Of a stretch of DNA of 64,000 nt, positions 1,767 through 26,720 are shown piece after piece. A program made the position numbers and the translations under genes. Under the pieces are notes generated by a model. It saw nothing but the letters and a program-made list of their open reading frames with translations. It was not told the DNA's origin and searched no databases. This stretch comes from Deferrivibrio essentukiensis (lineage in GTDB: Bacteria; Chrysiogenota; Deferribacteres; Deferribacterales; Deferrivibrionaceae): contig NZ_JAJAFU010000008.1 of assembly GCF_020480685.1 (NCBI RefSeq), positions 1 to 64,000 of the forward strand, in the 5' to 3' direction. The number at the start of each line of letters is the position of its first letter. Position 1 is the first letter of the stretch.

Positions 1767-1772
1767 ATAACC

Positions 1773-2781: not shown

Positions 2782-2872
2782 ATTCACCATCCCATTTTTT
2801 GCCTTTATAATATTCATTCCCGATAATAGCAATAAAATCTTAGTTGTTAAAACATTAGTTTTTTGTTACTTT

Positions 2873-2878: not shown

Positions 2879-2901
2879 AAATACCTATGAGGTTAACAAT
2901 T

Positions 2902-6528: not shown

Positions 6529-6544
6529 TGGCACATTTATTGCA
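6529..6544 (+). promoter_or_regulatory. Sigma-54 promoter, full match to consensus
   Basis: TGGCACATTTATTGCA matches the -24/-12 consensus TGGCAC-R-N4-TTGCW with GG and GC separated by exactly 10 bases. The predicted start (about 6555) falls at the ATG of the PilZ gene (6556), which lacks a Shine-Dalgarno site, so the mRNA would be leaderless. The element begins in the intergenic gap just after the cyclase stop. Confidence 0.6.
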
Positions 6545-7254: not shown

Positions 7255-8583
7255 TCATATAGCTACTTTATTGTTTAAAACAACCGTAATTGCGCTATTT
7301 ATAATGTTAGCTATTTTCATAGAATTAATATTATGTACGATATCATTATATTCATTTTCCGTTAAAGTTAAAAAAACTTCCACAAGTGCAGGGTCAAAAT
7401 ATGAGCCGGAATAAGACTTAATAACATCCATGGCTTCATTAAAGTTGTAAGCCTTTTTATAAGGTCTCTCAGACACAAGAGCATCAAAAACATCTATAAT
7501 ACTAAAAATTCTCGCAATAAATGGAATCTCCTCGCCCTTGAGTCCATGAATATAACCTGTCCCATCCCATTTTTCATGGTGGTACAAAATTAAATCTTTT
7601 ACCGTAGATAAGACCTCGTCACTCTCCACCAACTTATAGCCCATCAACACGTGCTTTTGCACTATCTTCCTCTCAAAGTCCAACAATGCCTCATTTTTCA
7701 AAATAATACTATCAGGAACACTTATCTTTCCTATATCATGTAAATAGGCTCCTATAACAATCTGGCCAGTTTCATAACTGTTTAACTTTAACTTATTTGC
7801 AATATTTAACGATATCAGCGCGACTCTTTCAGCATGCCCTTCAGTTTCAACATCTTTCATTTCAAGTACTTTTGACAGACTCTTAATACTATTGGAATAA
7901 GAAATGCCCAATTTATCATAGGAAACTTTCAGCTTGTTATCAAAATTATCAAGGGTTTTAATTGCATTTTTGAACTCTCTATAAAGAATTACATATACTA
8001 TAAAAGGTATAAGTGAAGCAAAAAGAATAACTGCAAACGTTTGAGGTCCAAGTAAAAATAATTTTGGAGCTACTGTATAATACTCAGCAACGGCCACAAC
8101 TTTACCGCTTTTGGTAATCGGGATATATGTTTCAAGTAATAAGCCTTTATCCAAAAGGTAGTAGTTTTCATTTTTGCCGGGATTTACATATTCACTTATT
8201 ATTTTATTTTTCTTAATCGATTCTATAAGCTCTTCGTTGATAAATTTTCTACCGATGAAAGATTTGTTGGCAAAGCTATATAATATTTTATTACCAACCC
8301 ATATCCTAAAGTCAACTATATCCCCATAATTATACAAATCATTAATGCTATCCTCAATTAAAGGGTAATTCGGTTTAAACTCACCCTTCTCATCTATTAT
8401 GTTAGCTAATTCAAGACGAGTCAATTTATCAAGCCTTTCAATAAATTTGTGTTTATTACCACTTAATTCCACAAAATATACTATTACCGGTAGTATCATT
8501 AAAAATAATATTGTAAAAGTTAATACAAATACAAACGTCCTCCTATAGAAGCGTTTTTGTAATTTATTAACAAATTCGCTCAT
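7255..8583 (-). CDS. Membrane HD-GYP phosphodiesterase with periplasmic sensor
   Basis: Predicted cyclic-dinucleotide phosphodiesterase. One membrane helix at about residues 16-38, an extracytoplasmic sensor region of roughly 140 residues (Cache-like, not firmly assigned), a second helix near 180-202, a linker, then the HD-GYP domain: H250, HD at 282-283 (LHDIGKI), HH at 335-336 and GTGYIHGLKGEEI from 341. The namesake GYP is GYI here, so specificity or activity may differ; metal ligands are intact. Its ATG overlaps the stop of the multiheme cytochrome gene (TAATG), so the two are translationally coupled, tying cyclic-nucleotide turnover to the electron-transfer locus. It converges on the PilZ gene. 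Confidence 0.88.
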   Translation of the reverse strand: MSEFVNKLQKRFYRRTFVFVLTFTILFLMILPVIVYFVELSGNKHKFIERLDKLTRLELANIIDEKGEFKPNYPLIEDSINDLYNYGDIVDFRIWVGNKILYSFANKSFIGRKFINEELIESIKKNKIISEYVNPGKNENYYLLDKGLLLETYIPITKSGKVVAVAEYYTVAPKLFLLGPQTFAVILFASLIPFIVYVILYREFKNAIKTLDNFDNKLKVSYDKLGISYSNSIKSLSKVLEMKDVETEGHAERVALISLNIANKLKLNSYETGQIVIGAYLHDIGKISVPDSIILKNEALLDFERKIVQKHVLMGYKLVESDEVLSTVKDLILYHHEKWDGTGYIHGLKGEEIPFIARIFSIIDVFDALVSERPYKKAYNFNEAMDVIKSYSGSYFDPALVEVFLTLTENEYNDIVHNINSMKIANIINSAITVVLNNKVAI

Positions 8584-10187
8584 TACAATAAGCCACCATC
8601 ATGAAAATGACATCTTATACAGTAACCACCATTATTAATATATTGAACGTGAGGATTAGAATGACTTGTAAAACTTCTACCATTATGGCAAGTTCCATAA
8701 CAGAAATTTGTAAAATTGACATTACTAACGTAAATAGTAGTCTGAAGTGTTCTACTAGCATCTTTTGTGCTAAAGGGGGCTCCCCCATCAATATTCCAAT
8801 TTACATCTTTAACCATAGCCATATAGTTTCCTGAATGTATATCATGGCACGCAAGACATGGAATTGACTTAGAACCATGCGTCTCATTTGAAAACCTTGT
8901 CAACACTATCGGCGCCCTATTTGTAGCTGTGCTTACCGTTAAATCACTTCTGTTAGCGGGATTTTGAGAGTAAGAACCATCATGGCATTTCAAACAAAAT
9001 TCATTTATTCTATAAAACTTTTTCCAATAGCTGCTTGTACCTGTATAGCTAGTACTCTGCGTAGGGGTAAAAGGCTGCAGTGTGTCAGGGTCAACAAGAC
9101 TTTCAATGACAGTAGTAGCCAAATTATCTTTTTGCACTCCATGCGGTCCATGGCAGTTAATACACTCCATATGTGTACTGTTACCTGATTGAGCAGTAGA
9201 AATTACATCATGGGATTTATTGTAATATCTAAAGTTATTTGGATTTGTATCTTTAAATTTCCCCTTATGGCAGGCATAGTTTGTGCTTGATTTTCCACAA
9301 GTAACGTTATTATAACCTGGAGAAGCATATGTACCGACTGAAGTATCTGTAACACTTTCAATATTTTTACCTGTCCCGTTTGGCACAGGAGCCACGGCTA
9401 AGTTTCCGCTTGAGCCATGACACACAAAGCATAGGTTTTCTTCATTGCCCCTTAATAACTGAGAAGTCTGAGAGTTAGTAATTAAGTCCTTTGCATTATG
9501 GGCCTTGTGGCAATTTCCGCACGAATAATCTGATGAAATTGGAGAATTAGTAACTACTTGATTATGAACGGAATTTGTAAATGTCAACGTTCCTGTTTTC
9601 TTGTCATGACAAGCTGTACACAGAGTAAGTTTATCAGCATTTCTTAGAAAATATTCAGCTTCGGTATGAGGGTCATGACAAGTGGTACACTCTATCCTAT
9701 TATTTTGCAACTTAATAAAACTTGGCAAGCTGAGAGGTGACTTTAATTGAGTATCAGAAGATGCAAGAGAACTGTCATACACAAATGAAATCGGATGATC
9801 GTCCATCAAATTTGTCCCGAGATTGGCTCCACCTGAAATAGTAGCATTTAAATCACTAACTGAACCATTATAAATAGCATTAAGCGCAATAGTGCCATCA
9901 TGGCAAGATAAACAAAGTCTTGAATTACCTGTAGGTTGACCAGGATTCGCGTTTAAGGTGTTTGATGTATATGTAGTGTAAACTGTATTACTCAGTTCTC
10001 TATTCCATAAAGGTGCATATGTTAAAGCATTATGTGGAGTATGACAAAAAACACATACTCTATCCTCGGTGCTTGATTTTATAGTCCCGGGGCCAGATTT
10101 AGACAAATTATGCTTCGTATTTTGCACACCAGCATAAACAACTATAGTGAAAAGCATAATTATAAAGAATAAACAAATTTTTTTCAT
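8583..10187 (-). CDS. Multiheme c-type cytochrome (10 CxxCH plus two variant sites)
   Basis: Exported electron carrier of 534 residues. The signal peptide (about 1-19, ending VVYA) is followed by ten CxxCH sites, plus CYGTCH (CX3CH) and C-X8-CH as possible further haems. The N-terminal 160 residues match the tetraheme domain found in the three small cytochromes of this locus: CVFCHTPHN, APLWNR, CLSCHDGT, HPISF, CTTCHDPH, CTACH. The rest adds six or more sites, some within HGPHG and HDIHSG patterns that supply distal His ligands. A GGAGG ribosome site precedes the ATG. It is translationally coupled to the HD-GYP gene. Periplasmic or surface location is inferred; no lipobox is visible. Confidence 0.9.
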   Translation of the reverse strand: MKKICLFFIIMLFTIVVYAGVQNTKHNLSKSGPGTIKSSTEDRVCVFCHTPHNALTYAPLWNRELSNTVYTTYTSNTLNANPGQPTGNSRLCLSCHDGTIALNAIYNGSVSDLNATISGGANLGTNLMDDHPISFVYDSSLASSDTQLKSPLSLPSFIKLQNNRIECTTCHDPHTEAEYFLRNADKLTLCTACHDKKTGTLTFTNSVHNQVVTNSPISSDYSCGNCHKAHNAKDLITNSQTSQLLRGNEENLCFVCHGSSGNLAVAPVPNGTGKNIESVTDTSVGTYASPGYNNVTCGKSSTNYACHKGKFKDTNPNNFRYYNKSHDVISTAQSGNSTHMECINCHGPHGVQKDNLATTVIESLVDPDTLQPFTPTQSTSYTGTSSYWKKFYRINEFCLKCHDGSYSQNPANRSDLTVSTATNRAPIVLTRFSNETHGSKSIPCLACHDIHSGNYMAMVKDVNWNIDGGAPFSTKDASRTLQTTIYVSNVNFTNFCYGTCHNGRSFTSHSNPHVQYINNGGYCIRCHFHDGGLL

Positions 10188-10209
10188 ATCTTACCTCCGG
10201 AAACTAAAA

Positions 10210-10225
10210 TGCAAATTATATACCA
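10210..10225 (-). promoter_or_regulatory. Possible sigma-54 promoter before the 534-residue cytochrome
   Basis: On the minus strand TGGTATATAATTTGCA keeps GG and GC ten bases apart, with TTGCA at -12. The predicted start, about 10199, would give a 12-base leader just containing GGAGG. The -24 box is TGGTAT rather than TGGCAC, and the 39-bp gap is AT-rich, so chance is possible. Confidence 0.35.
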
Positions 10226-10226
10226 T

Positions 10227-11201
10227 TTATTCATAAGACTTATATTTTTTTATTCTCGAATTAAAAAGATCAGCTATATAAATTTCATCTTCATAACAAT
10301 AAATTCTTTCAGGCATATAAAATTCGTCATCATGAGAGCCATTCTTCCCTATGAAAAACAATAAATCTCCATTTATGTTAAAAATTTGGAAATTATCAAA
10401 ATCGGTATCAGTAATATAAACTCTTTTATATTTGTCTATGCATATCCCTTTGGGCTTGGAAAAATAACCCGGACTGTTACCTATGCTGCCAAAGCTTCCT
10501 AATAATTTTCCGTTATAGTCAAACTTTAAAACTCTAAAATTCATGGAGTCAAGCACAAATAAAGTCCTTTCATCAGGGATTACGTCAATATCAATGGGAA
10601 AGTTCATTTCATAATTAAACTCTTTTAATATATTCCCGCTAAAATCTGTCTCCAAAATATTATTTCTTTCTTTGTCACTTATAAATATCACATTATTTTT
10701 GCGGTCAACTTTAATAGAAGTTGGTTTCTTCACAGGGATATCAAAAAAGGATATTTTATCTGTAATAATATTAACTTTAATAATTTTACCTAAATCTGAA
10801 TCAACCAAATAAAGATCATTACCATCAAAATCAAGATCAACTATCGACTTTAAATGTGTTGAATTAAACTCTCTGATTGTCTTAAGCCTAAAATTATTTT
10901 TATCAAAAACATATAATATACCAAACACTATATCACTTACTGCAATATAATTATCATTTGCAGCAACTGCAAAAGGTCTAAACAAAATAGGCACAGCATC
11001 ATAACCGTATCCAAAGAATTTCTTAAAAAAACTGTAATTTTCTTCTATAGTTTTACCGTCAATAATTTCTACCAACGCAACTTTTGGGTTAGTAATATCC
11101 GGGTAAAAATATTCTAAAAAGTTAGCAGTGCTCTTTTCTTTATAAGCACAACCACTAATTATTAACAGTATTATCAATAACTTTAACGTCAAACGTACCA
11201 T
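10227..11201 (-). CDS. NHL-repeat beta-propeller lipoprotein
   Basis: Predicted lipoprotein of 324 residues: a signal peptide ends in the lipobox IISGC, giving an acylated cysteine near residue 18. The rest is a series of beta-propeller blades of the NHL type, recognisable by repeated patterns such as GICIDKYKRVYITDT, FSKPKGI and IYIADLFNSRIKKYK. Such propellers are protein-interaction platforms and commonly accompany multiheme cytochrome genes of metal-reducing bacteria; enzymatic activity is not indicated. I chose the ATG at 11201 because GGAGAAGG lies just upstream and the signal peptide then begins cleanly. It overlaps the parvulin gene by 47 bases and precedes the 534-residue cytochrome by 39 bp. 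Confidence 0.82.
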   Translation of the reverse strand: MVRLTLKLLIILLIISGCAYKEKSTANFLEYFYPDITNPKVALVEIIDGKTIEENYSFFKKFFGYGYDAVPILFRPFAVAANDNYIAVSDIVFGILYVFDKNNFRLKTIREFNSTHLKSIVDLDFDGNDLYLVDSDLGKIIKVNIITDKISFFDIPVKKPTSIKVDRKNNVIFISDKERNNILETDFSGNILKEFNYEMNFPIDIDVIPDERTLFVLDSMNFRVLKFDYNGKLLGSFGSIGNSPGYFSKPKGICIDKYKRVYITDTDFDNFQIFNINGDLLFFIGKNGSHDDEFYMPERIYCYEDEIYIADLFNSRIKKYKSYE

Positions 11202-12105
11202 TAGCCTTCTCCATAACCTCAGCATATCTTTTTTTAAATATACCGTTATGCATAATTCTCTTAATTTCCTCTTTTACCTCTTGAAACGGTATTATCTCAG
11301 GAGGAAATTCTTCTTTGACATGGACAATTAAAAATCCAAAAATATTTTTATATGGACCGCCATACTGACCCTTCTCTAATTTTTCAATATCTTGTATTGG
11401 GTAATTTTTAGAGAATCTATAAATTCTTTCCTCTTTTGGATACTTTTTATCAGAACACTCTTTTAGCGCAGATTTATCACCTTGTTGAAGTCTTTGCTTA
11501 ACTTCATTGGCAAAATTTTCTTTTTCTTTCATCTGCTCAGGCTTTAAGTTTCTTGCATCAGCCTCTATTAAACAATTATCTACCTTCCAAGATGAGCCAA
11601 GATTAAACATGTCTTTGTTATTATTGTAGTAATCTAATAGCTGGCTATCTGGAATATCTGTAGATTCAATAGCTTCTTTAAAAGCATTCTTTATATTTAA
11701 ATCTATATGTGTTAACAAAAGATCCTTCTCAGTTATATAATTTTGTGCTAATGCTTCTTGAAATTCATTATCACTTTTAAACCTTTTCCTAATATCTTTA
11801 ATCACATTGCTTGCTTTTTCTTCTGCCTTTTTATAAACTTCAGGTTCAGTTTTATGCAGATATAAACTTAATTTTCTTGACTCTACTGCAGCTTTAAAAG
11901 CATCCTTCCAATAGTCAGCTTTATTAAGGCTTGCCCCATGAAATTTTCCTATTGGCAACACTGTATTAACAAAACTATTAACTTCAAATTGAGTAATCGA
12001 AGTATTGCCAATTTCAGCAACAATATTATTTGCAAAAACATTAACACTAATTGCGAGACTTATAAAAATAGTCAAAATTCTTACTAATCTTGAAATATAC
12101 AACAT
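11155..12105 (-). CDS. Periplasmic PpiC/SurA-type peptidyl-prolyl isomerase
   Basis: Likely folding helper in the periplasm. The 316-residue product has a signal peptide (about 1-25, SVNVFA), a helical SurA-like N-terminal region beginning IVAEIGNTSITQFEVNSFV and a parvulin-like domain in the C-terminal half, where EKLEKGQYGGPYKNIFGFLIVHVKEE matches the usual end of that fold. The parvulin domain looks shortened and somewhat diverged, so isomerase activity is uncertain. AGGAG eight bases upstream supports the ATG at 12105, even though it overlaps the beta-barrel gene by 59 bases. Its position suggests it helps fold the barrel or the cytochromes. Confidence 0.8.
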   Translation of the reverse strand: MLYISRLVRILTIFISLAISVNVFANNIVAEIGNTSITQFEVNSFVNTVLPIGKFHGASLNKADYWKDAFKAAVESRKLSLYLHKTEPEVYKKAEEKASNVIKDIRKRFKSDNEFQEALAQNYITEKDLLLTHIDLNIKNAFKEAIESTDIPDSQLLDYYNNNKDMFNLGSSWKVDNCLIEADARNLKPEQMKEKENFANEVKQRLQQGDKSALKECSDKKYPKEERIYRFSKNYPIQDIEKLEKGQYGGPYKNIFGFLIVHVKEEFPPEIIPFQEVKEEIKRIMHNGIFKKRYAEVMEKANGTFDVKVIDNTVNN

Positions 12106-14416
12106 CTTCTGTTCTCCTCATGTCGTTTTCGACAGTTATATTCTTTCGATAGCCAATTGCAAGTCTAAATACCCTTGTGTAATATTTAGCAATAAACTCA
12201 TAATCATCCCCTTTATTGCTACTCTTATCAAGCTCTTTCTCGTACGAGAATATACTTTCCAACCTTGATGTAGGTTGATAAGTAAGTTTAAATTTAAAAT
12301 AGTCATCATTTTTAAAACTTCCGGTAGCATCATCCCTATCTCTTTCAAAACCAAACTCTGCAATCAAATATGGTGAAACTGTCGGAAAATATTTATATTT
12401 TATTAGTTTTATATTTGCATTATAAGTTTCAACCTTCTGCTCATAATCATAGGCTCTATAAATCAATTCACCAATAACATTTCGAGCATTGATTTGATAA
12501 TTAAAATCTCTAATAGTATTTTTAGTCTTTTCAGTACTATTTGCATATTCATATATTTCTTTAGAATAAAATGCTCTAAAATTATTTATTTTATAATTTA
12601 TTAAAAGTTCAATACTATTTAATCTTTTAGTATAGTTATTTTTTTCAGTTTCTTTAGAATATAGTGGGAAAAATGATAACTTTCCTTTTTTACCAAGAAT
12701 TTCACTATAAAGCATAAACTCGTATTTATCCCTTTTATCATAACCGTTACCATTACGTGTCTGATATTTACTATTTAGATATAACTTTTTATCTAAAGTA
12801 TAGTAACCATCTTTAGACTCAAAAAACATTTCATCATAAAACTCATTATCGTAATCATTGTGGCTGTATCTAAATGCCTTATCAAAGATATAAACATAAG
12901 GTCTAATTTCAAATCTATCTTCTGCACTGAAAATATATTCGTCATTATAATCAAGATTCCCTCGAGGGTCATCTGTAATTGTATAATTATAACTAAGGTA
13001 ATTAATATCAAACCTATTTTTAAAATATTCAGAAGTATTAAGAAAATAACCCGTACTTCCACCTATTATTTTTTTATCATAAGTTCCATAGTTTAAATTA
13101 TTAACACTAAATTCGAGATCGTTAGAATCACCTGATATAACATTTATAATTCCATCAACGGATGTACCGAAGTTAATTGTATACTGTCCGCCAGAAGATA
13201 ATACTATCAAACCCAAACCGGCATTTGAGCCATCAATATTTATTCCTGTCAAATCAATGGTTATAGAAGAATTTCCGGTATTTAAAATTAATAAACTGCC
13301 ACTCCCCTTAAGTCCACCTGATAACAAATTGGTAATTCCGATATAATTATACGTATTATTAATGTCATTTAAGTCAACTTTTTCTTTACCTATCGAAAAT
13401 TTAATGTAAAAAGGTAAATCTATGGTGTCATAGTTATAAGCAAAATCATAAAAATAGCCTTCTTTTATGTCATTGGTATATTTACCTTCATCATACTTAT
13501 ATGAGAAATTATTCTGTAATGAATTTACCCCTTTTTCATAGCCAAAATCAGCAAATAAATGTCGGCTTTCATAATAAGCACCCTTATAAAATTCTTTTAT
13601 TTTTTCACCATATCCGCCAACCTTGAAATCTCCAAGCTTATAGTTTACAGAATTTCCAAAAACATCAACAAATCCAAGTTTATACACATCTTCTTCTTCA
13701 TTGTCTGAGCTGTCAACATAATCTTTTTTATTTGACTCATAATATAGACTAAAATTATTCTTTATACCTGCACCAGTAGATAGATTTGTTTCATTTTTAA
13801 GATAACTGGCATTGTCAGTAGTATTTTTATAATCATAAACAGTATAGCTTGACATTAATGTCAAGCTACCCGGCTTGAAAAAATAATAATTAGTAGTAGA
13901 GCTTTTCTGATAGTCGCCTAAAGATTTAATTATACCTTCTAATTCACTGACGTCAGACTTTATCTTAGAAAGAGAATTAAAGTATATATCGTTATCAATA
14001 TCTGTTTCTTTATTTGCATAATGTTCGAATGACATGGAAATTTTATACTTTGGGATGTTAAACCTTAACTTACTTTTTACATTATAAAATGTATCAGATT
14101 CGCTATCAGATTTATAAAAAGGGGTACTAATCTTCATATTATCATTATAAAATCCTAAATCATATCTGTTAACCTTTGCATCAAGATCTATACTTCCCAA
14201 ACGCCTTCCATAAAAATCACGATTAAAAGATGTTTCAAGAAACAAGTTATCCAATTGATTTGATTCCGTTTTTTTAGTCTGATTATCGCTAAAACCATAT
14301 TGTTGTAATTGTAAATCATAACCAGCATTTAAATAGAGATGACCAGCAAAAGTAATTTTATCTAAGAATATAAAAATGAGTAAAGACAACAATAAAATAT
14401 AAAATTTATTTATCAT
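12047..14416 (-). CDS. Large outer-membrane beta-barrel, candidate cytochrome-conducting porin
   Basis: A 789-residue exported protein: a signal peptide (about 1-24, ending TFA) and then long stretches of alternating polar and aromatic residues typical of transmembrane beta-strands (for example FKLTYQPTSRLESIFSYE and VYFKISKNFDYFYK at the end). Length and context are like the barrels that sheathe multiheme cytochromes in porin-cytochrome conduits (MtrB/PioB and analogous proteins), but I see no motif proving homology. A Gly/Ser/Ile-rich insertion at about 375-455 (ITIDLTGINIDG, GQYTINFGTSVDG) may be a loop domain. I use the ATG at 14416; a GTG lies three codons earlier. It overlaps the small tetraheme gene before it and the parvulin gene after it. 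Confidence 0.75.
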   Translation of the reverse strand: MINKFYILLLSLLIFIFLDKITFAGHLYLNAGYDLQLQQYGFSDNQTKKTESNQLDNLFLETSFNRDFYGRRLGSIDLDAKVNRYDLGFYNDNMKISTPFYKSDSESDTFYNVKSKLRFNIPKYKISMSFEHYANKETDIDNDIYFNSLSKIKSDVSELEGIIKSLGDYQKSSTTNYYFFKPGSLTLMSSYTVYDYKNTTDNASYLKNETNLSTGAGIKNNFSLYYESNKKDYVDSSDNEEEDVYKLGFVDVFGNSVNYKLGDFKVGGYGEKIKEFYKGAYYESRHLFADFGYEKGVNSLQNNFSYKYDEGKYTNDIKEGYFYDFAYNYDTIDLPFYIKFSIGKEKVDLNDINNTYNYIGITNLLSGGLKGSGSLLILNTGNSSITIDLTGINIDGSNAGLGLIVLSSGGQYTINFGTSVDGIINVISGDSNDLEFSVNNLNYGTYDKKIIGGSTGYFLNTSEYFKNRFDINYLSYNYTITDDPRGNLDYNDEYIFSAEDRFEIRPYVYIFDKAFRYSHNDYDNEFYDEMFFESKDGYYTLDKKLYLNSKYQTRNGNGYDKRDKYEFMLYSEILGKKGKLSFFPLYSKETEKNNYTKRLNSIELLINYKINNFRAFYSKEIYEYANSTEKTKNTIRDFNYQINARNVIGELIYRAYDYEQKVETYNANIKLIKYKYFPTVSPYLIAEFGFERDRDDATGSFKNDDYFKFKLTYQPTSRLESIFSYEKELDKSSNKGDDYEFIAKYYTRVFRLAIGYRKNITVENDMRRTEDVVYFKISKNFDYFYKSRN
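13845..13868. repeat. 24-bp perfect palindrome inside the beta-barrel gene
   Basis: The two halves, TAGCTTGACATT and AATGTCAAGCTA, are exact reverse complements with no spacer. It lies in coding sequence and may be coincidental; a hairpin in the long operon mRNA or a protein-binding site are alternatives. Confidence 0.5.
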
Positions 14417-14915
14417 GACAATCACTGCAAAGACTATTTAAACCATCTCTTAATAATTTATCTTTCTTCCCATGAGGATCATGACAAGTGGCACACTCAA
14501 CCTTATTATTAGAAAACAAAGGCAGTTTGTCCAATACTTTTTTGTTTATCACAGCAATATTTTTTTTCACATTTTTAGCAGTATCAATCGATATTGAAAA
14601 AGGGTGCAGATTATTATGATTTATATAATCAGGATGGCAGGAAAGACACACTTCGGTTATCTTTTCAATACTCTTAATATTTTTCTTAAATTCTTTCACA
14701 TTTATAGTGGGCGTTGCATACTCGTAAATCTTACTTTTACCCCAGAAAGCTTCAATGTCATACGATTTTCTTATCTTATGACAATACTTACAATATTGTT
14801 TGCCTTCGTCATCACTCTTACCCATAAAAGTAAACCTATGAGAATTTGATACTGCAAAACAAGTTGCAGAAAACATCAAAAAGATCACAAAAATATACCT
14901 ACAACTATTCCCCAT
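14406..14915 (-). CDS. Small tetraheme c-type cytochrome
   Basis: Exported 169-residue cytochrome with four canonical sites: CKYCH, CLSCH, CATCH and CSDCH. The signal peptide spans about residues 1-22. The order and spacing (CxxCHK, CLSCHPD, HPFSI, VECATCHDPHGKK, LCSDCH) match the tetraheme domain of the two following-upstream paralogs and of the N-terminus of the 534-residue cytochrome, although this copy has lost the PLWN motif (AFWGKS instead). AAGG precedes the ATG. Its stop overlaps the start of the beta-barrel gene, so barrel and cytochrome are made together. Candidate haem protein for filling or docking to the barrel; this is inference. Confidence 0.88.
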   Translation of the reverse strand: MGNSCRYIFVIFLMFSATCFAVSNSHRFTFMGKSDDEGKQYCKYCHKIRKSYDIEAFWGKSKIYEYATPTINVKEFKKNIKSIEKITEVCLSCHPDYINHNNLHPFSISIDTAKNVKKNIAVINKKVLDKLPLFSNNKVECATCHDPHGKKDKLLRDGLNSLCSDCHDK

Positions 14916-15082: not shown

Positions 15083-15793
15083 TCATTTAGTCGAGTGGCA
15101 ATCAGCACAAAATGTCTTAAGATCAGTTGTCCTTAGTAACTTATTATATGGTATTGCAACTTCAGCAGATACAGTCCCATAAAATTTATAAAACAGCATA
15201 TCCGTACCTACTGGTCCTTTTTTGTGAGGGTCATGACATGTTATACATTCTACCTTACCATTAACAAGCTTGTAACTACCATTAGTGCCAATAACTTTAC
15301 CATTATTTACATTACTACTAAGGCCTGAATCTTTATTATAATCATATTCTATTCCTATTGGATGATTTGCTTTGCTGTAGTCTATTTCCAATTTACCCAT
15401 ATTGAGGCTTGCAAAATAACTCTCAGTATATCCAGTTGATTCTGACATCCCATCATGACAAGCCATACAGGCTTCTGATGATGGGTTAATAGATGTGTCT
15501 TGAATATTATCAAGAGTATTGGTAGGGCTAGTATATGCCGAATATGCCGCACCATCATCATATTTATTTACATCGTTCCACAAAGGTATTTTAGTCCCTG
15601 CATTATGAGGCTTATGGCAAGGAGCACATGGACTAACATCAGCACCGTCGACCCTCGAAAAATTATGAGGGCTTGTATGACCATCAGGAGTAAAATTATG
15701 ACAGTTATATGTTGAACAACTTGACGCATATAAATAGCCGGAAGTTAATAGAAAAAAAGAAATTACAAGGAATTTGAATTTAATTTTACACAT
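15083..15793 (-). CDS. Tetraheme c-type cytochrome, filament-subunit-like (copy 2)
   Basis: Exported 236-residue cytochrome with CAPCH, CMACH, CITCH and CADCH, plus CSTYNCH (CX4CH) near the mature N-terminus as a possible fifth site. It closely parallels the next upstream gene: CHKPHNAGTKIPLWND, then a YSAYTSPTNTLDN stretch, CMACHDGMSES, HPIGIEYD and CITCHDPHKKG. Tetraheme proteins with this motif order form extracellular filaments in Geobacter (OmcE type, from memory). I start at the ATG at 15793, after AGGTGG; an open frame reaching 15847 runs through a strong hairpin and is unlikely to be translated. A 167-bp gap separates it from the 169-residue cytochrome. Confidence 0.87.
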   Translation of the reverse strand: MCKIKFKFLVISFFLLTSGYLYASSCSTYNCHNFTPDGHTSPHNFSRVDGADVSPCAPCHKPHNAGTKIPLWNDVNKYDDGAAYSAYTSPTNTLDNIQDTSINPSSEACMACHDGMSESTGYTESYFASLNMGKLEIDYSKANHPIGIEYDYNKDSGLSSNVNNGKVIGTNGSYKLVNGKVECITCHDPHKKGPVGTDMLFYKFYGTVSAEVAIPYNKLLRTTDLKTFCADCHSTK

Positions 15794-15807
15794 ATCCCAC
15801 CTCATGA

Positions 15808-15858
15808 TTAATAGCTTATCAAGGCGGGGTACTTTACCCCGCCACAAAAAGCTATTAA
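15808..15858 (-). terminator. Nested stem-loop between two tetraheme cytochrome genes
   Basis: The inner stem GGCGGGGTA / TACCCCGCC (15823-15831 and 15835-15843) has a 3-base loop. An outer arm pair, TTAATAGCTT / AAGCTATTAA (15808-15817 and 15849-15858), encloses it and includes the stop codon of the upstream gene. No clear U-tract follows in the direction of transcription, so it may be a partial terminator or an mRNA-stabilising hairpin that raises the first cytochrome over the rest of the operon. Confidence 0.65.
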
Positions 15859-16457
15859 TTGTTATGGCAAGTCTGACAAAGTGTTGTTTTTGATGCCCTT
15901 AAAAAGTCTCCATTTGTATCATCATGTGGATCATGACAAGTTGCACACTCTAAAGTATCAGAAGAAGCCCCATAAAATTTAAAACCTGCTGACTTAACAG
16001 TTGCTAAAGCTACCAATGCAGTATTAGTTCCTGCATCATCATACTTAATAGCTACAGGGTGCTGGCCACCTGAATTATTGGTATAATCTAATTTCAAACC
16101 TGTAGTAATGCCTGCTTTTACTGGTAGCGCACTTGCAAAATCAACATTTACAGATTCTACCATACCATCATGACAAGCCATACAAGCTTGTGAAACATTA
16201 CCCAAAGTACTTCCAGGTGTTTGATTCAAAGCATCTGTTGGAGATGAATACGCAGCATAAGTGGTATCATCAAACTTGTTTGAATCATTCCACAAAGGGA
16301 TTAATGTACCTGCGTTGTGAGGTTTGTGACAACCTGAACATGCAGTAGTACCGTAATTATTGCCTGCACTTGAGAAGTCGTGTGCAGTCCCCGCAACCGC
16401 TGCAAAAAGCATGGTTGGTAAAGCCAATAAAGCTAACAACATTAAAAGTTTTTTCAT
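15855..16457 (-). CDS. Tetraheme c-type cytochrome, filament-subunit-like (copy 1)
   Basis: First gene of the sigma-54-controlled unit: an exported 200-residue cytochrome with CSGCH, CMACH, CATCH and CQTCH. A clean signal peptide (LALPTMLFAA) gives a mature start near VAGTAHDFS. The mature protein carries the motif series GTAHDF, CHKPHNAGTLIPLWND, AYSSPTDAL, CMACHDGM, HPVAIKYDD, ECATCHDPHDD and LCQTCHNN, resembling OmcE-type tetraheme filament subunits as I remember them. GGAGG sits seven bases before the ATG. Strong promoter, strong ribosome site and a downstream hairpin all suggest it is the most abundant product of the unit. Filament formation is a hypothesis. Confidence 0.9.
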   Translation of the reverse strand: MKKLLMLLALLALPTMLFAAVAGTAHDFSSAGNNYGTTACSGCHKPHNAGTLIPLWNDSNKFDDTTYAAYSSPTDALNQTPGSTLGNVSQACMACHDGMVESVNVDFASALPVKAGITTGLKLDYTNNSGGQHPVAIKYDDAGTNTALVALATVKSAGFKFYGASSDTLECATCHDPHDDTNGDFLRASKTTLCQTCHNN

Positions 16458-16504
16458 AAATACCTCCTGTCTGTTTTATGAAACAAATTTGTTGAATTAC
16501 TTAT

Positions 16505-19463: not shown

Positions 19464-20555
19464 CTACCACCTAAGCATAGGCTCTTCAACCGTCATATTT
19501 TTTCGAGCTTTCTTGTATATATCACTCAAATATTGAAAAACAACCAATCTTCTATTCGGTGCATCAAGCACATATATCCTATCCTTTGAATCAATAATTA
19601 TATCTTTGGGATTGTTAAATCCCCCCAAATATACAGACGGCTTCTGATCGCCCATATAGTATAAAAATGTTCCATCCTGACCATATATTTTAAACCCATT
19701 TGAAGCGATGTCAACTATATATATGTGCCCTTCAGAGTCAAAAGCGATTCCGTTAGGAAAATTTAGCGCCCACAAATTATCCCCCGGCTCGAGTAAATCT
19801 TTTATAAGATTACCATCTTTATCATAAATAAAAACCTTACCGACAAATTTTGAAACAGCAAAAATTCTCCCGGTGCCATTTTCAACAGCCAAAGCAACTG
19901 GTGCAGGAACTTTTTCAATACTCTTTACAAACTTGCCATCGAGAGTCAGTATGTCGATTTTACCAAACAGCTGATCTGACACATATATTTTACCATCATA
20001 AACATAAAGGTCTGTTATATCTTTATAAAGTCCCGTAGAATCAAAACTTCCGCCACTTTCAAATTTCTTAAGATCTTCATCTTTAACTTTCTTACCATAT
20101 GACCATAAGACCTTTTTATCTTCATTTATTTCCATTATACTTCCAGAAGCTCTGTTAGCAATAAAGATTCTTCCATCGGGAGTAACATCAATGGCACATG
20201 GCATTATACTGCCAAAATTCAAATCTCTAATCTCCTGTTTTACAAAGTCAATAATCTGTATCTTAAAGGCAATCGGAGAAGCAATATAAACTTTACCTTT
20301 CCCGTCAGTAGCCATTCTGATTGACCTGTTTTCTATCCACTTAACATTAACATCACCAACTAATTCTTTTAAGATTGCACTCTTCCCGCTCTCCTTTTTT
20401 GGGAATTCATTAGAATTGGTAATAACTCTCAAAGCCTGTATTTTTGGATTTGCTGACTCTTTTGGCCATACATACTCATCCAATACAAATTTCGGAGGTT
20501 TAGAAGCACAGCCAAATATAACAAATACAATAAAAATAAAAAATAATTTCCTCAT
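19464..20555 (-). CDS. NHL-repeat beta-propeller lipoprotein
   Basis: Predicted 363-residue lipoprotein: signal peptide MRKLFFIFIVFVIFGCASK with lipobox VIFGC. The mature part shows about six propeller blades of the NHL type, for example CAIDVTPDGRIFIANRASG, ALNFPNGIAFDSEGHIYIVD and PKDIIIDSKDRIYVLDAPNRRLVVFQY. TAGGAG eight bases upstream fixes the ATG at 20555. It sits between the octaheme cytochrome gene and the histidine kinase gene and probably shares their mRNA. Propeller lipoproteins may tether or dock cytochromes at the outer membrane; this is context-based inference. It is similar in plan, but not closely in sequence, to the other two propellers in the locus. Confidence 0.83.
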   Translation of the reverse strand: MRKLFFIFIVFVIFGCASKPPKFVLDEYVWPKESANPKIQALRVITNSNEFPKKESGKSAILKELVGDVNVKWIENRSIRMATDGKGKVYIASPIAFKIQIIDFVKQEIRDLNFGSIMPCAIDVTPDGRIFIANRASGSIMEINEDKKVLWSYGKKVKDEDLKKFESGGSFDSTGLYKDITDLYVYDGKIYVSDQLFGKIDILTLDGKFVKSIEKVPAPVALAVENGTGRIFAVSKFVGKVFIYDKDGNLIKDLLEPGDNLWALNFPNGIAFDSEGHIYIVDIASNGFKIYGQDGTFLYYMGDQKPSVYLGGFNNPKDIIIDSKDRIYVLDAPNRRLVVFQYLSDIYKKARKNMTVEEPMLRW

Positions 20556-20565
20556 ATCCCAACTC

Positions 20566-21501
20566 CTACAATTTATCATTATGACATTTTAAACACAATT
20601 CCATAAAATCCGTTACATCCTGTTGAAATAACTGCTTGGATTTACCGTAATGAGGGTTGTGACACGACACACATGATAATTCTTCCCCCGTGCTTCGAAT
20701 GATTTTATCGGAAGTAGGGTGCGCATTGGAATTAAAATTAGCAAGTACATGAACACCTGACTTTTTATCGGTATGACAGTTATTACATATCCCATTAATT
20801 TTATCATTTAAAAGAAATTTCAACTCTGATCCGTGAGGGTCATGGCAAATGTTACAATAGCCGGCTACTGTCGGACCGTGGGCAAACTTGGCCTCAAACA
20901 TTGCCGACTGAAATTCCTGATGGCACTGCAAACACTTTGTAGAAACCGGTTGCGTAGGGGTAAAATAGTTATTTTTATCGTGGCACTGAAAACATTGTAT
21001 TGCAGCAACAGGGCCGTGTACAAACTTTGTCTTAGTTTTTTCTTTATGGCATTTCATACAATCGGACGACTTCTCAAAGCTATGACAACTCACACATAAA
21101 GTCTTATTTTCATCCATATGGAAAAAAGTTTTCTTTTTTACTTTATCCCTATATGCAACTGTAGAAGTTTTGAAAAATATTTTCAAATTTTGCTGTGAAC
21201 CTTTGTAGTCGATAAGTATGTCATTCTCATCTTTATCTAAAGTTACACTTTTCATAAAAACGTATTTTTCTCCATCTTTGGAAGCCAATTTTCTAAAGTT
21301 ACCAATCTCTTCTACCTTATTATTAGTCTTAATAGTAAACTCTTCAGATTTTTTTACATATCCTACTATATGAATGGTCCTATTAAATACAACGGTATTA
21401 TTTGTAGGATATACAATAGTTAAATCTGCGGAATAAGCCTTTGTAAAAACAAAAAACAGCAATAAACTAATCAAATATATTTTTTTCACACGCTTTCTCA
21501 T
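20566..21501 (-). CDS. Octaheme c-type cytochrome with N-terminal beta domain
   Basis: Exported 311-residue protein with eight CxxCH sites (CVSCH, CMKCH, CFQCH, CLQCH, CNICH, CNNCH, CVSCH, CLKCH), all in the C-terminal two thirds. A signal peptide (ending KAYSA) is followed by about 100 haem-free residues rich in beta-strand patterns (LTIVYPTNNTVVFNRTIHIVGYV), probably an immunoglobulin-like domain. The haem part uses FVHGPVAAIQCFQCH and FAHGPTVAGYCNICHDPHG repeats, shared with the 438-residue cytochrome two genes upstream. The ATG has no strong ribosome site but overlaps the end of the thioredoxin-fold/TPR gene, so translation is probably coupled. Confidence 0.88.
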   Translation of the reverse strand: MRKRVKKIYLISLLLFFVFTKAYSADLTIVYPTNNTVVFNRTIHIVGYVKKSEEFTIKTNNKVEEIGNFRKLASKDGEKYVFMKSVTLDKDENDILIDYKGSQQNLKIFFKTSTVAYRDKVKKKTFFHMDENKTLCVSCHSFEKSSDCMKCHKEKTKTKFVHGPVAAIQCFQCHDKNNYFTPTQPVSTKCLQCHQEFQSAMFEAKFAHGPTVAGYCNICHDPHGSELKFLLNDKINGICNNCHTDKKSGVHVLANFNSNAHPTSDKIIRSTGEELSCVSCHNPHYGKSKQLFQQDVTDFMELCLKCHNDKL

Positions 21502-22405
21502 AATATTCGCTGGCTTTTTCGTAATTTCCTAATTTTGCATAATTTTTTGCTAACAAGTAGTATAACTTACCCTTACTTGGAAAAATATTTTCAATGTTTT
21601 TCAAAATATCAAGGGATTCATTATATTTCCCACTCAGATATTGCACATAGGCAATATAAAATTTTGCATTCATATTAAATGCAATAGTATTCAACATTTT
21701 GTTTGCATCGTCATACTTTCCAAGCATTATATATACTTCACTCAGTTTAAGTTTTTCAAGCTGATTTAATCCATCAACTTCAATCTCTGCCAATCTTCTT
21801 TCCGCATCATCTTTTTGACCGTCCTCGATTAATCTTTTAACAAAATTAATCTTTGGTAATTCGCTTCTCTTTGTAACAACCTTGTTATTACTTTGAAATT
21901 GTTCATATTCCTCTTTAGTAATTTTACCCCGCAAATAGTCAATATATCGGCCTACTTTCGCCACATATTGACCTTGATACCCCAAAGCATCAATAATCAT
22001 ATTTTCTTCATTTAAAAATATTGTTACAGGAAGAGTAAACAGCCCCCAATCAACCAAGATGTCACCTTTAAATTTAACAAAATATATATTCTTTGTATTT
22101 TCAAACTTAATCCCGGCAATCTCGTTAGCATTTTTACCGGAAACTTCAACTGCAAAACAAACGATGTCTTTCTCGTCACATATTTTTAAAAATTTTGTTA
22201 AGATGTCAATACTTATCTGCTTGTTTGAATCCCACACCAATACCATCTTTTTATCTTTTATACCGGCTGCTTTTTCAATAGGCTTATCCAAAGATTCAAA
22301 TTCTGATAAATCGATCTTATCATTAATCTTCAGATTTTTAATTGGAAAAGCATATGATATATTAGCAATAGCAAATACTATTAACAAAAATAATGTTCTA
22401 ATCAT
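21467..22405 (-). CDS. Periplasmic thioredoxin-fold/TPR protein
   Basis: Exported 312-residue protein with a signal peptide (about 1-19, ISYA). The first half reads as a thioredoxin/TlpA-like fold, with a strand KKMVLVWDSN and the conserved cis-proline stretch LFTLPVTIFLNEENMI, but the usual CxxC is absent (DSNKQIS), so it should be redox-inactive. The second half has TPR-like helical repeats (KLYYLLAKNYAKLGNYEKASEYYEKA). It sits between two multiheme cytochrome genes and overlaps the octaheme gene, so a role as an assembly chaperone for cytochromes is attractive but unproven. I use the ATG at 22405, after AAGGTG, rather than a GTG three codons earlier. Confidence 0.75.
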   Translation of the reverse strand: MIRTLFLLIVFAIANISYAFPIKNLKINDKIDLSEFESLDKPIEKAAGIKDKKMVLVWDSNKQISIDILTKFLKICDEKDIVCFAVEVSGKNANEIAGIKFENTKNIYFVKFKGDILVDWGLFTLPVTIFLNEENMIIDALGYQGQYVAKVGRYIDYLRGKITKEEYEQFQSNNKVVTKRSELPKINFVKRLIEDGQKDDAERRLAEIEVDGLNQLEKLKLSEVYIMLGKYDDANKMLNTIAFNMNAKFYIAYVQYLSGKYNESLDILKNIENIFPSKGKLYYLLAKNYAKLGNYEKASEYYEKACEKNIFD

Positions 22406-22415
22406 AACAGTCACC

Positions 22416-23732
22416 TTATTCTGTATATTTTACAGGATTGAGACGATCATACTCTTTCGGCTTGTGGCAACCTACCACACAGCTACCGCCGGTCTTTGTT
22501 TTTGTGAAATTAATAGGCAATTCCCAACCACCACTGCCAAAAGGTACAGATTTTCTTACATGATTTTGCTGATTTGAAGCATGCACCTCATGACAAGCTT
22601 TACAGCTTCTGCCTTTACCTTTAATCATAACGTGAAGATAATGAAGATTCCTATCCCCATTTCTAAAACCAGTATATTTTGTTGTATTTGAATATTTTAA
22701 CACATCATCATTATGACAATTGAAGCATAACTGATACAATCCATCAACATACTGATTGTAAAACTTTTTAGGAAAAGCCATTTTTAAAATAAATGGGTTA
22801 TCAGAGCCATGCACGTTATGGCAAGCTGCACATCCATCCGATGCAACAGGTCCATGAACATACTTAGATTCCTTGACTCTTTTTGCAATATCCCCATGAC
22901 ATTCAAAACAAACATTTTTTTCATCGGATTTTAACAACTTACCATATGCAGATGCATGAGGGTTGTGACATTCGGCACATTCTCCGTCAGCCACAGGTTT
23001 ATGCTGGAACTTTGCCGTATCAACAAATTTTGACAAATTTTTATTCTCTTTATGACAACTCATACATAGCTCTTTTTCAGACTTTGCATTTAAGTGAAAC
23101 GGTGCATCAGAGTTGTGAGGGTCATGGCATTTTGCGCACCCCTCTTTTACAGGTTTGTGAACAAATTTATTATTAAAGTCATCTTTTTTATCATTATGAC
23201 ACTTATAACATATTTTATCTTCTGAATCTCTCAATTGGTATTTATAATCGGAGGCATGTGGGTCGTGGCAAGAAGCACACTCACCCACTGCTACCGGACC
23301 ATGCAAAAACTTTTTAACTGTCTTATTATTTTCATGGCATTGAAAACAGGTATCCGATTCTTTTTTCCCGATTATAAAATACTTATTATTGGCACCATGA
23401 GGATTATGGCAAGTTGTACATGAGCCGTCAGTAACAGGAGCATGCACATATTTACCATCAACTTTATTATCATGACACATAATACATACAGGCTGGTCAC
23501 CTGTCGGTGAAGCAAAATCAATAAAGCTCTTTGGCTTCTCTGAATGCTTCTTATAATTTTCCTCACTTGCAGCATGGCATACATTGCACTGACCAGCAGA
23601 TACCGGACCATGAGTAAACTGATTTTTCATAATATCAGTATGGCAGTTTCCGGTAGTACATGTCACTGCGTATGCATTAAAAGTAAGCAACATAAAAACA
23701 AATAAATAGCCTAACAACTTCATTGACTTCAT
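22416..23732 (-). CDS. Multiheme c-type cytochrome (13 CxxCH plus two variant sites)
   Basis: Exported 438-residue cytochrome. After a signal peptide (LLTFNAYA) there are 13 canonical CxxCH sites, plus CTTGNCH (CX4CH) at the mature N-terminus and CVVGCH (CX3CH) near the C-terminus. Most of the chain is a repeated unit of the form [FY]xHGPVxxGxCxxCHxPH followed by a second CxxCH, seen about six times, which would build a linear stack of haems. The C-terminal 90 residues carry fewer haems (KACHEVHAS, GGWELPINF). GGAGG lies seven bases before the ATG. It follows the 28-haem gene by 51 bp. Likely a periplasmic wire or surface component; location not provable from sequence. Confidence 0.9.
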   Translation of the reverse strand: MKSMKLLGYLFVFMLLTFNAYAVTCTTGNCHTDIMKNQFTHGPVSAGQCNVCHAASEENYKKHSEKPKSFIDFASPTGDQPVCIMCHDNKVDGKYVHAPVTDGSCTTCHNPHGANNKYFIIGKKESDTCFQCHENNKTVKKFLHGPVAVGECASCHDPHASDYKYQLRDSEDKICYKCHNDKKDDFNNKFVHKPVKEGCAKCHDPHNSDAPFHLNAKSEKELCMSCHKENKNLSKFVDTAKFQHKPVADGECAECHNPHASAYGKLLKSDEKNVCFECHGDIAKRVKESKYVHGPVASDGCAACHNVHGSDNPFILKMAFPKKFYNQYVDGLYQLCFNCHNDDVLKYSNTTKYTGFRNGDRNLHYLHVMIKGKGRSCKACHEVHASNQQNHVRKSVPFGSGGWELPINFTKTKTGGSCVVGCHKPKEYDRLNPVKYTE

Positions 23733-23783: not shown

Positions 23784-26720
23784 TTAATTTCCAATTAGTA
23801 ACTCCATAAAAGTTTTCTTTCGTTTCTTTTTATCATTATATTTTTCTTTTCTTAACTTATCAGTATGATAATACTTGTATCTTAGCATTGTTTCTTCCCC
23901 ATGACAAGTTGAACAAAAAGTAATAATCCCTTTATACTTCAAAAAACTATTCAAAACATTTCCTTCAGTATTTTCTGTAACCTTATAATCGTGACTTTCA
24001 CTCCACTTATGAACATCATGACATGTAGCACAAGTAATATTCCCTGTTAAAGACTTTTCTCCATTTTTCTTAAAAAGAAATTTATCCGGCAAATCTCTTT
24101 CAAGCTTAAAAGTCATAGGAATCTCAGGGTGACCATAAATATTAATCGCCTTAGTCTTGGCGATTCCATTTTCGCTATGGCAACCTAAACATATTTCTTT
24201 TACAAAATCTTTATTCGCATCGACATCTTTCTTATAAAAATACTTGTTATTCTCTGAATAATTGTGAACAGTGTGGCATGCATCGCATACGGAATCTTTA
24301 TCTTTGAAGATAAGACTCATATTATGTTCCGAATATAGCACATCTTTTTCTTTTTGATGGCATGAAATACATAGTTGATAGGATTTTAAAATATTTGATG
24401 GAAATAAATATTTATTATTTATATGTGGCTCATGGCATGTTTTACAAACAACTTCCCCGTTGTGAGTATAAAAATCTTTAATTTTTTCGTCCTTCATGCC
24501 GATATGACTTGTTTTAATGATGTTATTTCCAAAAATATTTTTATCACTATGACAGCTTTCACAAGTGCGAATTAATACAGCATCTTCAGTTTCACCTCTT
24601 TTGTGGATATCATGACACAAGTAACAATTCTCTTTTTTAAATTTACCGGACATATCTCTAAAGTGTGTTGAATTATGAGGTGAATCCAAAAATTCTTTCT
24701 TATCTTTATGGCATTGAAAACAAAAACTATCTTCTTTATATTTAAGAAATCTGTTTTTCCCTTTCTGTTGACTGTGCGGATCATGACATGAAATACAGCT
24801 AAGATTTTCCTTGATGGCATTTTTTTTATCTTTGATAGTGCCAAAAGGGTGCAATACTTTAACAATATTGTTTTTTGCAACACCATTAGTATTATGGCAA
24901 ACTTCACAATAATCATTATCATTATTATAATCCCACTTAATAGACATCAAATATTTATTGCTAAAGGAATTATGAACCACATGACAATTTTCGCATAAAC
25001 CTTTTTTCTTTTGATCATGGTGTTTTGAATTAAAAATACCATTTTTTTCAATATGGCAACTTATACAAAAATCATCCTTATTGCTAAAGTTAATCCTCAA
25101 AAACTTTTTATTCTTACCGGGTTGATGAGGGTCATGACATGTGGCACATTGAATTTTTGAATCGTAAAGCTTGAAGTTATCAGGAATAACATCATGAACA
25201 ATTTTGTTAACCGGGTGGCTATTTTCCCCGGGTATAAATTGCTTTGCTACCCCATTCTTATTATGACAGTCTACACATATATCTTTAATATCTCTTTTCA
25301 AAAGATATTTATTCTCAGAATTATGAATATTATGACAGCTGAGACAAGTTATATCATTTAAACTATGTTTAGAACCTAAAATATCTTTTTTATTGTCATG
25401 ACATTTTAAACATATAAAATCATTTTTGACTTCAGCCCTTAAAAAATTCTTTTCTTTACCGTGTGAATCGTGACAAGTAGCACAATTGATAAATTTGTCA
25501 TTATTTTCCTTATTCATTTCACTAAAATAATTTATACTTTTTGTAAATAACGGTAAATCTTGACTGTTTTTAACCTCAACACTTACCGGATGATTAAATC
25601 TATCCTTGAAAATCCTTTTTTCGCCAACAATATCAGCCTCTATATGGCAAGACAAACATGCTTTGCTTAATAAATCGGTATCAACATTTGGCAAGTCAAC
25701 TCCCCAACCGTGAGGACCGTGGCATGCTGAACATGTTCCATATTTATCAGGTGTCTGACCAAACTTATTTTTAAACCCTTTTTTCTTTTTTAAGTCATGG
25801 CTTGTGTTTTTCACTGATACCTTATTCTTGTGACAAGTAAGGCAAAGTTTATCATCTTTATTATCAACTATTAATAATTCTTTATTGATACCTTTATGAG
25901 TATTGTGGCAGCTCAAGCAAATTATCCTGCCATCCTCAAACTTTCCTCCTAAACTTTCTACTTCTGAAATCATTGTGTTATCTGTTGGTATATTTACAGG
26001 GTGGTTTAATACACCTTTTTTGTATTGTTTTTTAGAATCCAATTTATCGGTATGGCAAAAAGAGCAAATTTCCGAATTTGCAATTTTACCCAACAAAATC
26101 TTCTTCTCTTTAGGACCGTGGGGAGTATGGCAACTTTCACATATTATTTTCTCATCATCCCCTAACTTTCCTTTATTTTCAACTAATTGCCGTGAAACAC
26201 TCATTTTACTATTTAGCTTGGATTCAGGGTGATTATAATGACCTTTTTTATCCGAGTGACACATTTTACACAACTGTGAATTAGTATTTTCTACTCTTAA
26301 GAAAACACTTCTGCCTATGTCCCCTTTGTTAATATCCTTTGTGCCATGAGCAGTATGGCAAGTCCTACATTGAATCTCACCATTTTCAAGGGGCAATTCT
26401 TCAGGAATCTTCATGTTTGATGGTGGCTTTATGCCAACTTTATGCATATCATTAGCCCATACACGTAATCTGCTATCAGCTACCGAACCGTCATGACAAG
26501 AAAAGCACATCCTTTCGTTTGCAACAATTCTGTCCTTTTGGTAGTCTACTATTTCAGTCCCTTTTAGCTCGTAAATAAATGAATCCATCCACTCATAGTG
26601 GCAAATCGCACACTCCTTTGCAGATTCTTGACCTGTAAAAGAGTAGCTTGCAGATAAATAAGAAAACAAAAATAAGCAAATTATTATAGGCAACTTATTT
26701 AAATTTAAATTTATATACAT
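23784..26720 (-). CDS. Giant multiheme c-type cytochrome, 28 CxxCH sites
   Basis: The largest cytochrome here: 978 residues, a signal peptide (about 1-28, SASYSF) and 28 canonical CxxCH motifs, one per 35 residues on average. Many are followed by xPH or xHN groups that give the distal His ligand (CHTPHGPKE, CHDPHQPGKN, CHDPHSQQKG). Local repeats such as CHNKNGVAK, CHNTNGVAK and CHSENGIAK recur at intervals, pointing to growth by internal duplication. The first segment (CAICH, CFSCHDGSVAD, CRTCHTAHG) resembles the small tetraheme domain of the locus. The C-terminus is very basic (KKKRKKT). I use the ATG at 26720, after AAAAAGG; it overlaps the propeller gene by 26 bases. Such a protein could span the periplasm. 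Confidence 0.92.
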   Translation of the reverse strand: MYINLNLNKLPIIICLFLFSYLSASYSFTGQESAKECAICHYEWMDSFIYELKGTEIVDYQKDRIVANERMCFSCHDGSVADSRLRVWANDMHKVGIKPPSNMKIPEELPLENGEIQCRTCHTAHGTKDINKGDIGRSVFLRVENTNSQLCKMCHSDKKGHYNHPESKLNSKMSVSRQLVENKGKLGDDEKIICESCHTPHGPKEKKILLGKIANSEICSFCHTDKLDSKKQYKKGVLNHPVNIPTDNTMISEVESLGGKFEDGRIICLSCHNTHKGINKELLIVDNKDDKLCLTCHKNKVSVKNTSHDLKKKKGFKNKFGQTPDKYGTCSACHGPHGWGVDLPNVDTDLLSKACLSCHIEADIVGEKRIFKDRFNHPVSVEVKNSQDLPLFTKSINYFSEMNKENNDKFINCATCHDSHGKEKNFLRAEVKNDFICLKCHDNKKDILGSKHSLNDITCLSCHNIHNSENKYLLKRDIKDICVDCHNKNGVAKQFIPGENSHPVNKIVHDVIPDNFKLYDSKIQCATCHDPHQPGKNKKFLRINFSNKDDFCISCHIEKNGIFNSKHHDQKKKGLCENCHVVHNSFSNKYLMSIKWDYNNDNDYCEVCHNTNGVAKNNIVKVLHPFGTIKDKKNAIKENLSCISCHDPHSQQKGKNRFLKYKEDSFCFQCHKDKKEFLDSPHNSTHFRDMSGKFKKENCYLCHDIHKRGETEDAVLIRTCESCHSDKNIFGNNIIKTSHIGMKDEKIKDFYTHNGEVVCKTCHEPHINNKYLFPSNILKSYQLCISCHQKEKDVLYSEHNMSLIFKDKDSVCDACHTVHNYSENNKYFYKKDVDANKDFVKEICLGCHSENGIAKTKAINIYGHPEIPMTFKLERDLPDKFLFKKNGEKSLTGNITCATCHDVHKWSESHDYKVTENTEGNVLNSFLKYKGIITFCSTCHGEETMLRYKYYHTDKLRKEKYNDKKKRKKTFMELLIGN

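Follow-up and report, generated by a model that had tools for sequence, protein, structure and literature searches.

An OmcE-family tetrahaem cytochrome preceded by a sigma-54 promoter in the multihaem cytochrome cluster of Deferrivibrio essentukiensis

The protein encoded by a Deferrivibrio essentukiensis gene, here called P0002, resembles the OmcE filament protein of Geobacter sulfurreducens (PDB 7TFS) in its sequence family, its four CXXCH motifs, its eight conserved histidines and its signal peptide. The two proteins differ in length (232 aa for OmcE, 200 aa for P0002), share about 31% identity and occupy separate places in a tree; in addition, the P0002 locus encodes three further OmcE-like proteins and has an adjoining sigma-54 regulator, unlike OmcE. 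PDB entry 9YUQ ('Putative multiheme cytochrome c', with 16 chains in one entry) groups with OmcE and not with P0002. OmcS, the cytochrome of another nanowire, is a hexahaem protein without sequence similarity to OmcE. In the OmcS nanowire locus, with its GSU2500-GSU2493 maturation/secretion block, filament-type cytochromes are likewise encoded in tandem, next to other multihaem genes (PMC12977616). The locus also recalls the MtrCAB conduit in having a DmsE/MtrA-family cytochrome (22416-23732) and a candidate barrel, but the cytochrome contains 13 CXXCH motifs compared to ten in MtrA, and the candidate barrel matches no solved barrel.

Between positions 8583 and 31302, the window (the whole 64-kb stretch of DNA analysed here) contains 19 genes, of which the third to be transcribed encodes cytochrome b561. 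A matching 19-gene cluster has been described in D. desulfuricans, D. autotrophicus and D. abyssi, among others (PMC13186404, PMC6896113). The Deferribacter cluster (DEFDS_0741-60, FHQ18_02900-02990) has the same number of genes, with a cytochrome b at position 3, and both clusters include a two-component system and 28-haem and 10-haem proteins (PMC6896113, PMC13186404). Published accounts of the Deferribacter cluster describe c3 cytochromes and a possible role in Fe(III) reduction, and leave the individual proteins unassigned (PMC6896113, PMC13186404); neither OmcE nor filaments nor NHL proteins are mentioned in the text of PMC13186404. The literature describes reduction of insoluble Fe(III) by members of the phylum, and D. 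desulfuricans, described as non-iron-reducing, also carries the cluster (PMC6896113, PMC13186404).

Gene order and expression signals of the locus

The features of the locus, all on the minus strand, are as follows:

8583..10187, minus strand: 11-haem cytochrome, 534 aa, ten CXXCH and one CX3CH
10227..11225, minus strand: NHL-repeat protein (PF01436, 47.9 bits)
11155..12105, minus strand: PpiC-type peptidyl-prolyl isomerase (PF13145, 39.5 bits against a cutoff of 27)
12047..14425, minus strand: haem-free secreted protein of 792 aa, candidate outer-membrane beta-barrel
14406..14915, minus strand: mhc169, diverged OmcE-like tetrahaem protein of 169 aa
15083..15793, minus strand: P0001, OmcE-like cytochrome, 236 aa from the ATG at 15793
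15698..15718, minus strand: CX4CH motif of P0001 (CSTYNCH), conserved in orthologs
15807..15859, minus strand: intercistronic RNA hairpin between P0002 and P0001, long, with no T run
15855..16457, minus strand: P0002, OmcE-family tetrahaem c-type cytochrome, 200 aa, ATG start, Sec signal peptide
16463..16468, minus strand: Shine-Dalgarno sequence AGGAGG of P0002
16505..16520, minus strand: sigma-54 (-24/-12) promoter, 48-63 bp upstream of P0002
16807-18108, minus strand: NtrC-type sigma-54 response regulator, adjoining P0002
18098-19489, minus strand: histidine kinase, beside the regulator
19464-20579, minus strand: NHL protein, between the kinase and octahaem genes
20566-21501, minus strand: octahaem cytochrome
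21467-22414, minus strand: TPR-like protein
22416-23732, minus strand: 13-haem DmsE/MtrA-family cytochrome (TIGR03508, 237 bits, above the cutoff of 192.2)
23784-26726, minus strand: 28-haem cytochrome
26695-27564, minus strand: NHL protein
27561-28421, minus strand: 3-haem cytochrome
28375-29277, minus strand: cytochrome b561
29280-30332, minus strand: multihaem cytochrome
30337-31302, minus strand: 10-haem cytochrome

Unusual haem motifs occur across 8583-31302, both CX3CH (CYGTCH, CVVGCH, CLNECH) and CX4CH (CSTYNCH, CTTGNCH, CSRKTCH).

The gene order was compared with that of five Desulfuromonadia loci containing OmcE homologs, which are 59-64% identical to OmcE in three loci and 42-51% in the other two. 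Upstream of the omcE homolog lie two cytochrome-biogenesis-type genes (in one locus, a family search confirmed CcsB), followed by genes for a decahaem protein (9-10 CXXCH), an octahaem protein and an NHL protein; in one of the five (L099) the NHL gene was not called, as a longer antisense ORF was retained. The omcE homolog is followed by a gene for a haem-free protein (about 750-810 aa), and in two loci a second NHL gene separates them. The same order is found before P0002: the homolog of the decahaem protein (22416-23732, 13 CXXCH), the octahaem protein (20566-21501) and the NHL protein (19464-20579). The TPR-like gene, the kinase and the regulator are interspersed in the window, and the TPR-like gene is not shared with the Desulfuromonadia omcE loci. 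P0002 thus occupies the position matching omcE.

A sequence-only reading of this DNA had assigned P0002, the first gene of the pair, a sigma-54 promoter, a GGAGG ribosome-binding site and a downstream hairpin, and all three were found. The promoter (TGGCACAGTTAATGCT) belongs to a pattern with three matches in the 64-kb window, compared to 0.14 expected, and AGGAGG is present before every ortholog examined; the P0002 orthologs of three other genera are likewise preceded by a sigma-54 site, at a distance of 51-77 bp, together with AGGAGG. The regulator and kinase genes are kept adjoining P0002 in the four related loci L072-L075. The conserved promoter and Shine-Dalgarno sequence fit a product that is predicted to be abundant, as expected of a major subunit. 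The hairpin has a z-score of –5.2 in the window and of –5.7, –3.6 and –6.9 in three relatives, and is at chance level (–0.2) in the Calditerrivibrio locus; its shape is kept among the relatives, and its sequence differs outside the genus of the window. In L075, the spacer between P0002 and P0001 holds an insertion. A classical terminator was ruled out for this hairpin, given that there is no T run. A second good sigma-54 site (TGGCACATTTATTGCA, 6529-6544, plus strand) lies just upstream of a 207-aa ORF at 6556, which reads like a putative PilZ-type protein.

The OmcE-like proteins and their companions

P0002 lies upstream of P0001 within 15083-16457, and the two minus-strand genes encode related secreted multihaem cytochromes. 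The mechanical ORF call for P0001 (254 aa from a TTG start) was dropped in favour of the ATG at 15793, with the ribosome site GAGGTGGG. Every motif listed in the sequence-only reading was found, in order, in both genes: HDF/HNF, CHKPHNAGT(L/K)IPLWND, SPT, CMACHDGM, HPVAIKYD/HPIGIEYD, C(A/I)TCHDPH and a final CXXCH. The proteins share 44% identity over about 150 aa (E = 1.7e-29), with 69 of 189 positions identical in the whole alignment, and on this homology, well beyond chance, they are paralogues. Two other parts of the earlier reading, that the genes encode tandem tetrahaem proteins and that both are akin to OmcE, hold for P0002 and only in part for P0001, which has a CX4CH motif in addition to its four CXXCH and matches OmcE weakly (1.7e-6, over 69 residues only).

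P0002 contains exactly four CXXCH motifs and exactly eight histidines, and begins with an export signal, MKKLLMLLALLALPTMLFA/AVAG, read from the sequence by eye. In a phmmer search against the PDB, its best match was 9YUQ (1e-19), and OmcE (7TFS) was matched at 9e-16. A profile of the 20-member P0002 family matched OmcE at 5e-54, covering 207 of 209 positions, and 9YUQ at 3e-41; no other PDB entry scored better than 4e-9. Aligned with OmcE, P0002 is identical at 59 of 192 positions (about 31%), and a joint alignment with OmcE and 9YUQ showed that all eight histidine columns common to these two are filled in P0002 (H26, H44, H47, H96, H133, H175, H178 and H198), of which H26, H47, H133 and H178 stand at the columns of the distal ligands of OmcE. 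The ninth histidine of OmcE is absent from every other sequence of the alignment. The eight histidines of P0002 are invariant or nearly so among 20-46 homologs, and the four distal ones, including the N-terminal one, are kept in its orthologs. In the tree, P0002 is placed outside the OmcE/9YUQ clade, with weak support for the deep branches. By these sequence comparisons, P0002 is a true member of the OmcE family of tetrahaem cytochromes. An AlphaFold2 model of P0002 from 46 homologs reached a pLDDT of 47.7, and Foldseek with that model gave no match.

The interfacial haem of OmcE is ligated across subunits (PMC12954529; PMC9473688). Since all conserved histidine columns of OmcE are filled, P0002 has the equivalent of whichever conserved histidine bridges the subunits. 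H26, at about the seventh residue of the mature protein, is the obvious candidate and likely to be the inter-subunit ligand by analogy with OmcE.

The CX4CH motif of P0001 sits near the mature N-terminus, directly after the signal peptide, and because it is kept in all six orthologs (CSTYNCH/CGTYNCH/CAVYNCH), P0001 is probably a pentahaem and not a tetrahaem protein. In all six orthologs nine histidines are invariant where ten would be expected, and P0001 may thus leave one of its haems short of a ligand, which may fit a filament end-piece. A lipoprotein reading of the first cysteine was disfavoured by the conserved YNCH that follows and the signal-peptidase-I-like site just before it.

Two further proteins, passed over in the sequence-only reading, join P0001 in making this a multi-paralogue OmcE-type locus of unusual architecture. 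mhc169 is without the distal histidine of CHKPH (equivalent to H47 of P0002) and carries another histidine. The 11-haem protein contains an OmcE-like domain in its first ~197 residues, and this domain, which matches OmcE at 4e-26, is by sequence the closest OmcE relative in the locus.

Among the companions, the protein encoded at 22416-23732 (13 CXXCH) matches MtrA of 6R2Q at 4e-19. Chain A of that PDB entry matches multihaem cytochromes, and its molecule field reads 'Cystathionine beta-synthase', which could mislead a search by name. The candidate barrel protein (12047-14425) and its positional equivalents gave no useful match against Pfam/NCBIfam; a PDB profile search with their alignment returned chance matches only and no solved barrel, and no sequence kin was detectable outside the Deferribacterota loci compared. 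Its alternation z-score is 1.5, and that of the L073 ortholog is 3.0, in a test that was devised for this analysis and is not a calibrated barrel predictor. Six positional equivalents in other loci have F or W as their last residue, and for five of these the z-score is 3 or more. AlphaFold2 with two sequences gave a pLDDT of 28.6.

Conservation and wider distribution

A block of seven genes (P0002, P0001, mhc169, the candidate barrel, PpiC, NHL and the 11-haem protein, in that order) is kept in a second genome of the same genus (L072) and in two other genera (L073/L074; L075). In a third other genus (L076/L077, contigs titled Calditerrivibrio), two contigs each carry part of the block. P0002 is absent from most other genomes of the same order.

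In L075, a complete genome, an insertion with a 462-aa transposase-like ORF splits the P0002 ortholog ahead of its fourth CXXCH (region of about 9250-11512), and the rest of its C-terminal part follows the insert; P0002 would thus be dispensable in that genome.

Across the loci compared, homologs of the 11-haem type have exactly 11 CXXCH motifs in 32 of 38 cases, and an NHL gene lies no more than 300 bp upstream of 33 of the 38 (median distance –3 bp). The short homologs have exactly four CXXCH in 30 of 32 cases, and the two forms occur together in 20 loci. The records are titled Planctomycetota, Nitrospirota, Desulfobulbaceae, Gammaproteobacteria, Verrucomicrobia, Gemmatimonadales, Actinomycetota and others, most being MAGs for which single taxon assignments may be wrong. 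The long and short forms are largely separate in the tree, with the 11-haem proteins apart from OmcE and 9YUQ, and with P0002, P0001 and the Deferribacterota long proteins forming one group each. One record (L106, titled a Nitrospirota MAG) contains three small OmcE-like genes close together at 1609-4528, beside NtrC-type regulator genes, and continues with NHL, pentahaem, haem-free large protein, NHL and 11-haem genes, nearly the layout of the window.

A proposed filament and its alternatives

We think it reasonably probable, if far from certain, that the locus builds an OmcE-type extracellular cytochrome filament with P0002 as its main subunit, connected to the cell. This reading is based on the homology, the conserved ligands, the gene order, the promoter and the Shine-Dalgarno sequence, together with a hairpin that is mostly conserved; we infer from sequence the polymerisation, the ligand between subunits, the surface location and the roles of the companions. 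The sigma-54 activator encoded next door would switch P0002 on strongly, and P0002 would be exported by Sec, receive four bis-His haems and stack end to end, with H26 probably crossing over to act as a ligand in the adjacent subunit, as described for OmcE. P0001, with a P0002-like core and an extra N-terminal CX4CH haem, would serve as a minor end-piece or cap, and mhc169 as another minor subunit. The candidate barrel and the DmsE/MtrA-like cytochrome would together form an outer-membrane conduit, and the 11-haem protein, with its OmcE-like head, would be the anchor by which the filament docks on it. The PpiC and NHL proteins would help in folding and assembly.

Several observations weigh against the filament: the modest identity of P0002 to OmcE (about 31%), its place outside the OmcE/9YUQ clade, the presence of the cluster in the non-iron-reducing D. 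desulfuricans, and the interrupted ortholog in one complete genome. Polymerisation is known for few OmcE homologs, and even among close OmcS paralogues filament formation is poorly predicted by homology (PMC12977616). The physiological role of cytochrome filaments in Geobacter is also disputed in the literature (PMC11077965), so a filament alone would not prove a respiratory function.

P0002 and P0001 might instead be soluble or outer-membrane-attached monomers of the OmcE fold, shuttling between periplasmic cytochromes and the outer-membrane conduit without forming a polymer. Most OmcE homologs are untested as polymers, and P0001 and the 11-haem protein belong to the same fold family and have extra haems, so the fold also serves proteins that need not form a repeat. 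However, P0002 and its orthologs retain the four distal histidines, the N-terminal one among them, the promoter and Shine-Dalgarno sequence point to an abundant product, and the position of P0002 matches that of omcE; we regard the monomer explanation as rather unlikely. It is also conceivable, at a distinctly lower probability, that the 11-haem protein is the real surface conductor and the small tandem genes encode accessory or assembly subunits, given that its N-terminal domain is closer to OmcE than P0002 is (4e-26 compared to 9e-16) and that its homologs lie beside NHL genes in loci titled to many phyla. Yet the resolved OmcE-type subunit is a small tetrahaem protein, the tree separates the 11-haem proteins from OmcE and 9YUQ, and the strong sigma-54 promoter and the omcE position belong to P0002 and not to the 11-haem gene. 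A last alternative, already suggested in print for D. desulfuricans (PMC6896113, PMC13186404), is that what is left of a former metal-reduction system is now decaying. It could draw on the insertion in one relative's P0002 ortholog and on the absence of P0002 from most other genomes of the order, but is highly improbable in view of the intact reading frames of all genes in the window and the ligands, promoter and gene order kept across genera.

Beyond a P0002 filament in this organism, we tentatively consider a more widespread apparatus, which at present seems to us a doubtful generalisation: a tetrahaem OmcE-like filament would grow on an 11-haem, OmcE-headed base held by an outer-membrane barrel, and a pentahaem CX4CH paralogue would form the end-piece. 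The gene for the base directly follows an NHL gene, and the base would start the wire by mimicking one of its subunits.

Electron transfer to insoluble iron in Deferribacterota has been described as unresolved, with the multihaem cluster known and suspected to be involved (PMC6896113, PMC13186404). An OmcE-type subunit with its own sigma-54 promoter turns this known cytochrome cluster into a testable wire system, and recognising P0002 narrows the search to one gene and one filament. The anchoring of cytochrome wires is listed as open in a recent review (PMC12307469), and short OmcE-like tetrahaem proteins paired with OmcE-headed proteins of 11 haems, found in many phyla by record title, offer a concrete candidate for how such wires may be anchored.
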